Source: Candidatus Saccharimonadota bacterium (lineage in GTDB: Bacteria > Patescibacteriota > Saccharimonadia > Saccharimonadales > Saccharimonadaceae). Taken from it: 64,000 nucleotides of DNA. The position numbers and the translations under genes were made by a program. Of the stretch, positions 46,847-61,325 are shown in pieces; the first letter of the stretch is position 1; every line of letters begins with the position of its first letter. The DNA lies in assembly GCA_017405265.1 (NCBI GenBank), contig JAFRAS010000008.1, positions 1 to 64,000 on the forward strand. The letters are read 5' to 3'. Under the pieces are notes generated by a model, which saw only the letters and a list, made by a program, of their open reading frames with translations, had not been told where the DNA came from and did not search any database.

Positions 46847-47624
46847 GAATAAAGCCGGTCGTTTCGATTTTTCGAGACGGATCGGCTTTTTTGATGAGGT
46901 CGATGAGTTCGAGGTGAGTGGTGGGGTCGGACTCCAAAAGAATAGTGAAATTTTCGGCTAAAAGCGTTTGGCGGTTTTTTAGAATAACAGAGATAAATTG
47001 CGATTGGAGCGCGGTGCCTCTCTCCGAAAAAAGAGCGAGGGCGGGCTCGTGTTTTAGGGAGTTTAGGTCGAGCCAATCCCAATTTTTGTCGACGTAGGGG
47101 AGGTTCGCGACGATTAAGTCAAATTTTTGGCGATGTTTTAGGAAATAATCGAGGAGGTCGGAGTGGACGAATTTGACGTTCGCTTTCAGATTTTTGGCGT
47201 TTTTTCGCGCGACGTTCAGGGCGGAGTTCGAGAGGTCGGAGGCGGTGACGGTGGCGTCTTTTAGCTCGAGTTTCAGAGTAATTGCGAGACAGCCGGAGCC
47301 GGTGCCGAGATCCAGAATGTTTTTATAAGTTCCCTGTTTCGCGAGGTCGATGATGGTTTCGGATTCGGGGCGGGGGATGAGGACGCGGCGGTCAACGTAA
47401 AAATCGCGACCGTAGAAATTTTTAGACTTTAGAATATAGGCAAGGGGGAGACCGGAGAGGCGCTGTTTTTTGAAGAAATTTGCTGATTTCAGTGCGTGTG
47501 ACTCGATCTTTTCGAAATCGTGGGTGACGAGAAAAGGACGGTCCTTTTTCAGGGCGTGCGCCAAAATGAGTTCGGCGTCTTCGCGCGGGAGACCCGAGGA
47601 GATGAGCCACTCCCTAATCAGCAC
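46833..47624 (-). CDS. prmC: Release factor glutamine methyltransferase
   Basis: 263 residues. SAM-binding [14 protein letters not shown], catalytic VANLPYV (NPPY type, here NLPY), and [12 protein letters not shown]. It methylates the GGQ Gln of release factors; the neighbouring prfA supports this. Overlaps the prfA end by 11 nt. Confidence 0.94.
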
Positions 47625-48663
47625 GTTTTAATTCCCTTTCGTAATTCTCGAGTTCGTTCAAAATATCGTCGAGGTCGCCGTCCATGACGGCGGAAATGTT
47701 GGAGCGGGAGTAGTGGATGCGGTGGTCAGTGACGCGATCTTGGGGAAAGTTGTAGGTGCGGATTTTTTCGGAGCGGTCGCCAGTGCCGATGAGAGATTTG
47801 CGCGCATCACTGGCGTTTTTTCGTTCTTCTTCGCGTTTTAAGTCGAGGAGGCGGGAGCGTAAGATGTTCATGGCCTTGACGCGGTTTTGTTGTTGGGAGC
47901 GCTCGTCTTGCATGGCGACGACGAGGCCGGTCGGGAGGTGGGTGATGCGGACGGCGGAGTCGGTGGTGTTGACGCCTTGGCCACCGTGGCCACCGGAGCG
48001 GTAGATGTCGATACGCAAATCCTTTTCGTCGATTACGAGGTCTTCTTCTTCGGCTTCGGGGAGGACAGCAACGGTGGCGGTGCTGGTGTGGATGCGACCT
48101 TGGGACTCGGTGACGGGGACGCGCTGGACGCGGTGGACACCGCCTTCGAATTTCAGACGGCCGAAAGCATTGTCGCCGAGGACCTTAAAAATGACTTCTT
48201 TCATGCCGCCGGCTTCGTTTTCGTTCATGGACATTAATTCGACCTTCAAACCGTGATTTTCGGCGTATTTAAGATACATACGGTAGAGTTCGCCAGCGAA
48301 AAGCGAGGCTTCGTCGCCACCGGCGCCGGCGCGAATTTCGAAGATGGCGGGGCGTTCGTCGGTGGCATCTTTCGGAATCAGTTTATCTTCGAGCTGTTGT
48401 TTTAGTGTTGTAATTTTTACAACGGTCGATTCGTAATCTTCCCTTGCCATTTCGCCGAGTTCGGGGTCGGATTCGAGGGCCTTGCTCTCCTCGGCCGCTT
48501 TTTCGAGTTTTTCGATTTCGGTGTTTAAATTTAGAATTTCTTCGATTTCGGCGAGACGTTTCGAGTTTTTGGCGAAGTCGGGAGAGCGAAAAGCCTCGGG
48601 TTTACTCAAAAAATCGCGAATTTTGGCAGATTCTTCTAAAAAACTCTGGATTTTTTCGTTCAT
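47614..48663 (-). CDS. prfA: Peptide chain release factor 1
   Basis: 349 residues. GGQ loop in [26 protein letters not shown], plus [10 protein letters not shown] and [19 protein letters not shown]. Releases peptides at UAA and UAG. The start at 48663 (MNEKIQSF) is chosen because TATAAT (48671-48676) ends 7 nt before ATG (leaderless). Contains the third copy of the 17-nt palindrome (48407-48423), again encoding VVKITT. prfB is not in the window, but TGA stops are common, so RF2 should exist elsewhere. Confidence 0.96.
48407..48423. repeat. Palindromic repeat GTTGTAA-N3-TTACAAC, copy 3 (in prfA)
   Basis: Identical to the two copies in xseA, 30 kb away. It has the same orientation with respect to the coding strand and the same VVKITT translation, in an unrelated protein. 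Confidence 0.9.
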
Positions 48664-48682
48664 ATGTGATATTATAACATAA

Positions 48683-48864
48683 GAATGCGTTATTTCCCTC
48701 AAAATGCGCATTCGAGTTAGCGTTTATGGAGTTGACTGCGTCTGTCCCCCCAGAGGCTTTCAAATCCGCCCTCGGGCTACGCGCTAAAACACGCATAGTG
48801 TTGTGAGACTACGCGACCCCCCGCGGAAATCACGTCGCCAATTTGGTAACACTATGCGTTTTTT
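48683..48864 (+). ncRNA. Candidate structured RNA before tRNA-Val
   Basis: No coding frame was found here. Three nested or serial helices are visible: GAATGCG/CGCATTC (48683-48689 with 48707-48713), TTAGCG/CGCTAA (48717-48722 with 48782-48787), and the perfect 12-bp ACGCATAGTGTT/AACACTATGCGT (48791-48802 with 48848-48859), which runs into six T, like a terminator. Inner parts are more GC-rich and can fold further. A possible -10 box TATTAT (48670-48675) overlaps the prfA promoter on the other strand. It is not tRNA, 6S, SRP or RNase P RNA by any motif I know. Alternative: a large attenuator or terminator region. Confidence 0.45.
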
Positions 48865-48882
48865 GTGCTATAATAGAAGCAC

Positions 48883-48959
48883 GGTCTCTTAGCTCAGTTG
48901 GCTAGAGCGCACGATTCACATTCGTGAGGTCACTGGTTCGAGCCCAGTAGAGACCACCA
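48883..48959 (+). tRNA. tRNA-Val (anticodon CAC)
   Basis: 77 nt with encoded CCA. Acceptor GGTCTCT/AGAGACC; anticodon stem CACGA/TCGTG around loop TTCACAT, giving anticodon CAC for GUG codons; T loop TTCGAGC closed by ACTGG/CCAGT. A TATAAT box (48869-48874) ends 8 nt before G1. lepB starts 11 nt after the CCA end, so the tRNA is probably cut from a longer transcript. Confidence 0.96.
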
Positions 48960-59490: not shown

Positions 59491-60711
59491 ATGGCTAAAT
59501 CCAAGAAGAGGAACCGCAATTCCTCGCGAACGGCAGAGCAGTCTAGAGAGACAGCCCGCAAAAATAAAGTGGTGGAAGAAGAAAAAGAAATCGAAGAGGC
59601 GGAGGTTGTGGCCGAAGACGATGAGGCGACCGAGACGGAAGAAGTCGAGGAGACTGAGGAAGTTGAGGCGACGGAAGAAGCCGACAATGAGACCGAAGAA
59701 GATTCTGAAGATACCGAAGAATCTGACGACTCCGAAGATTCTGAGGACTCTGAAGAAGAAGTTGAGGACTCTGATAATGATTCCGAGGAAGATGATGATG
59801 AAGATTATGACGAGGACGACGAGGATGAAGACGATGAAGATGACGAGGACGATGAGTCGGAGAAAAAAGCCTACGAAAAAGAGTTGAAAAAAGCCGAAAA
59901 GCGCAAAGCGAGAGCTGAAAGAGCTGAGAAAATTAGTGCGAATAGCATCTTTGCACGAAAATATGACGCAAATGAGAATATTTTGACTATTTTCAAAGAT
60001 AAGAAAGTTTACGCTGCGCTGATTGGCGAATTTATCGGCACCTTGATGATTACGATTCTTATGATGACTTTCGGTGCGAATTATATTCTCTATATCATGC
60101 TTGCGATGATTGCGATTTATATGGCAATTTACACGCTTTCGGGCGCGCATCTTAACCCGATTGTGACGGCCGGGATGATGGCGACGCGGCGTATTTCGGC
60201 GATTCGTGGCGTTTTGTATATCTTGGCGCAGGTGCTTGGTGCGGGGGCGGCCTTTGGAATCCTTTCGGCTTTCAGAGTTGCAGGAAACGAAATTGGCACC
60301 TTGCCGACGATGGCGGCGACTACGGATGCGACGTATTGGATTACGACTTTGGTTGAAATCTGCGGCGCTTTGATTATCGGTTTTGCTTTTGCGCGCGCTT
60401 TGCAATATCGTCGCTCGGTGTTGACCTTTGCGATTGTGGTGGCTGGCGGCGTCGTGACGGCGTTGGTGCTCGGCCTCTTCATTTCGGGCAACTTCCTCGG
60501 TCTTTCCAACAACTACATCATGAACCCGGCGGTAGCTTTGATGTATCAAATCTTCCCGTCTGAGGGCGATAATGTGGGGCAGATTTTGGCCGGAATTGGC
60601 AAAGCACTCGTGACCTACGCAGTATTCCCGATGATTGGCGGAATTATCGGCTTCTATCTTTCGGACTTCGCTTCAAAACTCAAGGGTGAGAAGCTCGTGA
60701 CGGAAGAATAA
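59491..60711 (+). CDS. MIP/aquaporin-family channel with long acidic N-terminal tail
   Basis: 406 residues. Residues about 29-125 are nearly all Glu and Asp with Ser and Thr. A basic linker (EKRKARAERAEK) leads into a six-helix MIP domain from about 175. The two pore motifs are NPI (222-224, GAHLNPIVTAG) and NPA (345-347, NNYIMNPAVALMYQ), so one NPA is altered. Water or glycerol transport is expected. The tail is not known in standard aquaporins. AAGGAGG before ATG. The codons of the tail vary (GAA, GAG, GAT, GAC), so it is not a simple DNA repeat. Confidence 0.9.
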   Translation: MAKSKKRNRNSSRTAEQSRETARKNKVVEEEKEIEEAEVVAEDDEATETEEVEETEEVEATEEADNETEEDSEDTEESDDSEDSEDSEEEVEDSDNDSEEDDDEDYDEDDEDEDDEDDEDDESEKKAYEKELKKAEKRKARAERAEKISANSIFARKYDANENILTIFKDKKVYAALIGEFIGTLMITILMMTFGANYILYIMLAMIAIYMAIYTLSGAHLNPIVTAGMMATRRISAIRGVLYILAQVLGAGAAFGILSAFRVAGNEIGTLPTMAATTDATYWITTLVEICGALIIGFAFARALQYRRSVLTFAIVVAGGVVTALVLGLFISGNFLGLSNNYIMNPAVALMYQIFPSEGDNVGQILAGIGKALVTYAVFPMIGGIIGFYLSDFASKLKGEKLVTEE

Positions 60712-61325
60712 TGAGGGGCGCCAAAAAAGTTATCTTTAATCTCCTCGCGATTTTCTTAATCGCGGGGGGATTGGCGTTTTTGGCGGTTTTTCGTTATTAT
60801 TGTCACAACGGGGCGGACACGATTAGGATAATTGCCGAGAATCCGAGGGGTTTCTTAGGTCTTTTTGCGTTATTCTCGTTTTTTGTGATGTTTTTTTATG
60901 GGGTGACGCGGAGGTTGTTTATTGGAGCGGGGGCGCTTTCGGTGATTTTGTTGTGGTTTACACAAATTCATGTAGATAAGATGCTGGCGGGGGCGGGAGC
61001 TTTGAAACTTTCCGATTTTGCGGATTTTAATAATATTATAAATATTGTGCGGGGCGGAGGAGTGGTGGAGCTCGTGTGGATTCTCGCGGTCGTTGTGATT
61101 GTATTTGGGATTTTTTGGTCGCTCGATCGGGCAGGAGGGGAGAGGTGGCGGATTAGTGGAGAGACGAGCGCGGTGGAGATTATTATTGACGGAAAAGCGC
61201 GGCCAGGAAAGTTTCGCCAATGGTTGCGCAGAAGAGCGATTTCGCAGAGATTGACACTGATGATTTTGTCGGGCGGCGGAGCGGTGCTATTTTTACTCTA
61301 TTTTAAAGATTTTCTGGGATTTTTG

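Follow-up and report, generated by a model that had tools for sequence, protein, structure and literature searches.

REP-like bacterial elements are short, self-complementary sequences that lie between genes. Small intergenic RNAs whose hairpin loops are runs of C are represented in Actinobacteria by 6C, named after its two stem-loops with six C (PMC4046766), and by B11 of Mycobacterium abscessus, either C-rich loop of which suffices to repress a target with a six-G tract in its leader (PMC10470900). For Saccharibacteria and other candidate-phyla bacteria, our literature search found no study of small RNAs. The insert described here, located between prfA and tRNA-Val, resembles REP elements in being short, self-complementary and intergenic, and relatives carry such dispersed elements in the same gap; unlike REP elements, however, it is single-copy, and it is unrelated to either of the dispersed families (A and B, below) found in those relatives. 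As a candidate small intergenic RNA with C runs for hairpin loops it resembles 6C and B11, but it spans 182 nt as opposed to ~100 nt for 6C, its C6 loops are both enclosed by three-way junctions (that of domain 3 by the terminator stem as well), and it showed no covariance-model match, relatives or target signal. By covariance model, the insert is not a 6C member. We favor, tentatively and at somewhat less than even confidence, the hypothesis that it is a structured insert specific to this lineage and gives rise to an orphan, terminated RNA.

The window, meaning the whole 64-kb stretch of DNA analysed, covers 12% of a small, Saccharibacteria-like source genome (G000) of 519 kb that is 85.6% complete. 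A first-pass annotation had placed a possible structured RNA between divergent prfA and tRNA-Val genes, and this setting was borne out by Pfam domains for the former and by ARAGORN and the Rfam tRNA model for the latter. Upstream of the insert lies prfA on the minus strand, and downstream lie tRNA-Val(CAC) and a signal peptidase gene. The features of the locus, in window coordinates, are as follows:

47614..48663, minus strand: prfA, peptide chain release factor 1 (Pfam PCRF and RF-1 domains)
48667..48677, both strands: putative promoter, overlapping divergent extended -10 boxes (read from the sequence)
48683..48713, plus strand: domain 1, a 12-bp hairpin with loop CCCTCA (fold and pair probabilities)
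48717..48787, plus strand: domain 2, a three-way junction (fold and pair probabilities)
48791..48864, plus strand: domain 3, a 12-bp stem around two hairpins (loops ACCCCC and ATT), then TTTTTT (fold and inverted repeat I1)
48866..48874, plus strand: putative second promoter, extended -10 TGC-TATAAT (promoter scan, 10/12 matches with TG)
48883..48959, plus strand: tRNA-Val, anticodon CAC (ARAGORN; Rfam tRNA, 67.2 bits)

The insert, about 180 bp long, separates an old divergent promoter from a second promoter directly before tRNA-Val. The sequence TGTGATATTATAACA, adjoining the prfA start, contains both overlapping -10 boxes, one per direction (TGA-TATTAT at 48667-48675 on the plus strand and TGT-TATAAT at 48679-48671 on the minus strand), and positions 48667-48677 are the equivalent of the prfA/tRNA-Val promoter common to relatives, whose gaps have TATAATTATA there. 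Gaps in relatives mostly measure 14-60 bp. In about four fifths of the ~125 relatives' loci with a divergent prfA/tRNA-Val pair (some genomes being counted more than once), the gap is only 14-70 bp and holds this one palindromic promoter. The divergent pairing is old in the genus and, since most of these gaps are short with a single promoter, the insert of the source genome is derived; judging from the relatives that are without it, it does not represent an ancestral leader of tRNA-Val. On the prfA side, the minus-strand -10 box lies 7 nt from the start codon, so prfA is probably leaderless. The same spacing, with the prfA -10 box ending ~7 nt before the start codon, was seen both in the window (48661-48677) and in relatives, and prfA appears to be leaderless in the genus, its palindromic -10 box being shared with the divergent tRNA-Val promoter.

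The plus-strand -10 box TATTAT has its end 7 nt ahead of 48683. Hairpin 1 begins with this base, which the position of the box predicts as the transcription start. As arranged, the insert reads as a self-contained plus-strand transcription unit: the half of the old promoter that faces the tRNA would start the RNA at ~48683, the RNA (~182 nt) would fold into one hairpin and two three-way junctions, transcription would end at the stem and T-run (48859-48864), and tRNA-Val would be transcribed from its own, new promoter. The latter, TGC-TATAAT, is located 8 nt before tRNA-Val and immediately past the T-run. The combined stretch TTTTTTGTGCTATAATAG at this second promoter was found again elsewhere in the genus, with at least one clear case preceding a coding region (L034), and hence looks like a common promoter form. 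If the insert is transcribed, a newly arisen RNA gene would have taken half of a conserved divergent promoter, and the tRNA would have gained a new one.

The helix pairs of 7, 6 and 12 bp reported in the first-pass annotation all proved exact: GAATGCG/CGCATTC (48683-48689 with 48707-48713), TTAGCG/CGCTAA (48717-48722 with 48782-48787) and ACGCATAGTGTT/AACACTATGCGT (48791-48802 with 48848-48859), the last followed, as also reported, by TTTTTT at 48859-48864. Most pairs of the fold have a probability >0.9. Domain 2 is composed of an outer stem (TTAGCGT/GCGCTAA), a long hairpin with loop TCCCCC and a short hairpin (GCC-CTCG-GGC), and domain 3 forms a second three-way junction (48791-48859), whose outer 12-bp stem is followed by T6. 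The plus strand of 48683-48864 folds at -69 kcal/mol (ViennaRNA) vs. -45.1 +/- 3.9 in 200 dinucleotide shuffles, none of which was as good; the corresponding z of -6.1 is partly due to the chosen boundaries, since these were set knowing the helices and the registers of our whole-window scan were not matched to the insert. That scan comprised 456 windows of 182 nt, of which the best at the insert, in registers that overlapped it in part, reached z -3.7; only two scored lower than z -4, namely a simple terminator and a stretch of coding sequence with a hairpin over overlapping genes. An RNA on the minus strand was considered and rejected, the fold being weaker there (z -4.25) and prfA having its own promoter adjoining its start. 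A tRNA or tRNA remnant was likewise rejected: as the first-pass annotation had said of the segment TTCAAAT (at 48759), no tRNA is found around it, and the segment pairs instead with GGAGTTGA. An integron attC site was dismissed by eye, the order of GTTAGCG...CGCTAAAAC being inside out.

Domain 3 together with T6 is a probable intrinsic terminator, with a stable 12-bp stem directly before the T-run; its loop of ~45 nt is unusual, and this length is why a simple scan missed it. At a minimum, the insert would stop transcription from the prfA promoter ahead of tRNA-Val. This minimum could be the entire role, that is, the insert might be an insulator in which a terminator with accessory hairpins leaves tRNA-Val to its own promoter and the RNA itself is inactive. 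Such a function would fit the terminator-like end with a promoter immediately after it, and in one relative (G109, locus L151) the same gap holds an ordinary terminator hairpin and T6 and then TATAAT ahead of the tRNA, which is the layout of the source genome in simple form and also fits the transcription unit that we favor. However, a terminator requires 40 bp, as opposed to the 180 bp present here, and domains 1 and 2 would be left unexplained; we consider the insulator alone to be quite improbable. The order of promoter, structured RNA and terminator ahead of a tRNA on the same strand could also describe a leader that regulates tRNA-Val by attenuation (read-through vs. termination). We give this possibility hardly any credence, given that a good promoter stands between the terminator and the tRNA, that most relatives express tRNA-Val without such a leader, and that no riboswitch or T-box match was obtained at E up to 10.

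For an orphan, terminated RNA, the most likely mode of action would be, by analogy to 6C and B11, that of a trans-acting sRNA that shows its C-rich loops to G-rich mRNA stretches. CCC occurs in three of the five hairpin loops (CCCTCA, TCCCCC and ACCCCC), which only 3 of 1000 shuffles reached in a test that was chosen after the loops had been seen. CCCCCC is present twice, at 48746 and at 48817, each time in a hairpin loop, so that the insert shows the 6C feature of two stem-loops each with about six loop C, and two of the three plus-strand C6 runs in the window fall within the insert. The two C6 domains were also considered as tandem duplicates, a reading rejected because 128 of 1000 shuffles equalled the alignment score. 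Among 57 start regions of the window, based on crude gene starts and representing 12% of the genome, there was no enrichment of G-runs, and with these same crude starts, pairing to the two C6 loops was poorer in the regions than within coding sequence. Hence, with no G-run enrichment in these start regions, the C-loop mode is without support from targets and should be taken as an analogy, not as a finding.

Searches for homologues placed the insert in the source genome alone. BLAST of the stretch returned promoter matches only, and no homologues were found in plasmids, phages or viral contigs. A covariance model (R1) built on 48715-48866, which rests on one sequence and may thus miss distant homologues, matched only the source genome among 174 genomes of the genus and a 392-genome sample of the order, gave no second copy in that 85.6%-complete genome at E up to 10, and did not match the relatives' inserts in the prfA/tRNA-Val gap. 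With homologues absent from these 174 and 392 genomes, there is no covariation for the insert; and with even the closest members of the genus only ~76% identical in prfA protein, there is no close strain for comparison. The locus of the closest lepB match in GTDB genomes was inspected and discarded as not syntenic. The search against RNA family models that had been proposed in the first-pass annotation gave nothing for the insert in Rfam; a permissively filtered cmscan (E up to 10) returned only the tRNA and one chance match over the tRNA. Taken as a whole, the strand-biased fold, the promoter at hairpin 1, the terminator-like end and the separate tRNA promoter make a structured RNA plausible, as had been suggested, whereas no conservation accompanies it in the relatives (174 genus and 392 order genomes), which is largely the outcome named beforehand as speaking against the suggestion.

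Some genus members carry other compact, self-complementary inserts at exactly the same gap. These include a single-copy hairpin of ~107 nt in G147 (L051), copies of family A in G110, G200 and, in shortened form, G003, and a copy of family B in G048 (L105). In four further loci (L024, L069, L097 and L129), mutually similar gaps of ~550 bp resemble a small gene encoded on the same strand as prfA. In view of the varied structured inserts of the relatives, structured elements have landed in this one gap repeatedly. The insert of the source genome may likewise stem from such a landing, though it matches neither family A nor B. This is the basis of the main rival to our favored hypothesis, namely that one or more dispersed REP-like elements of the genus landed in the gap and that the fold comes from the element, with no separate RNA function. 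Besides the unrelated inserts at the same position, the wide dispersal of families A and B (below) is consistent with this origin, as is the architecture of domain 3, a stem with two inner hairpins like those of family B and of the DUF3800-IX RNA in the window. Yet such an origin also has to account for an insert that belongs to neither family and has no second copy in its own genome or in relatives, with BLAST giving promoter matches only. On balance, we regard a dispersed element as a real possibility but a doubtful one.

More striking, as an outcome of the search, are the two families of dispersed structured elements in relatives. The consensus of family A reads GGGTGAC, a variable stem, GGAGGGGG, an ACCCCC hairpin, GGGGGAGGA, a stem, and GGCAGGACCC. 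By pattern, it was found in 73 of the 174 genus genomes (the reversed control pattern gave zero in every genome listed), and a covariance model (R2) detected up to 25 copies per genome as well as a few copies in other genera. Family B has a nearly constant core of ~75 nt (GGGGCATCCGCAG...GACGGGCGCGA...) within long outer stems that differ copy by copy, and BLAST matches to it occur in 123 of the 174 genus genomes. Copies are located as follows:

L110, 92-167 (G110), reverse complement: family A
L159:105-174: family A
L187:1502-1585 (contig C3 18158-18243): family A copy in the source genome
~35 more loci: family A
L210 to L215, match near 1501-1609: family B
L105 (G048): family B

At the insert itself, model R2 run on the window gave no match to the family A core (GGGTGAC...GGCAGGACCC), and BLAST showed nothing notable for the family B core; with a family B copy as query, BLAST found none in the source genome. 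Across 39 distinct copies of family A, 94.8% of cells are paired, and in 13 of the 19 pairs both partners change. Covariation was scored at 0.556 vs. 0.05-0.11 with slid partners, a control that allows in part for the use of an alignment fitted to the model. Beyond the core, the flanks complement each other better than permuted flanks do (-10.7 vs. -6.8 kcal/mol), and the copies tend to lie within longer unique palindromes. Neither family has an Rfam match; both can be studied at once, and for family A the compensatory evidence is strong.

The window also carries one copy of the DUF3800-IX RNA (RF02968; 13856-13918, minus strand, 56.8 bits), also detected in 5 of 40 relatives. Together with the T-rich stretch behind it, the outer stem looks like an upstream-gene terminator whose loop holds the element. 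Domains 2 and 3 of the insert resemble this RNA in having an outer stem around two hairpins, but the insert is without its conserved junction (CCCGAA, CCGUAUGG and UAGGG), and it was not matched by the DUF3800 covariance models at E up to 10. A further hypothesis, which we rate as unlikely, is that the insert is part of a wider class of expressed structured elements in the genus, with conserved or semi-conserved cores set in copy-specific stems; families A and B would then be members not described before, and the insert a lineage-specific one.

Finally, at 60707-60800 of the window, a very stable long hairpin (fold z about -5.4 to -6.3) lies over the overlapping stop and start of two genes (ATG at 60711) and possibly serves translational coupling.
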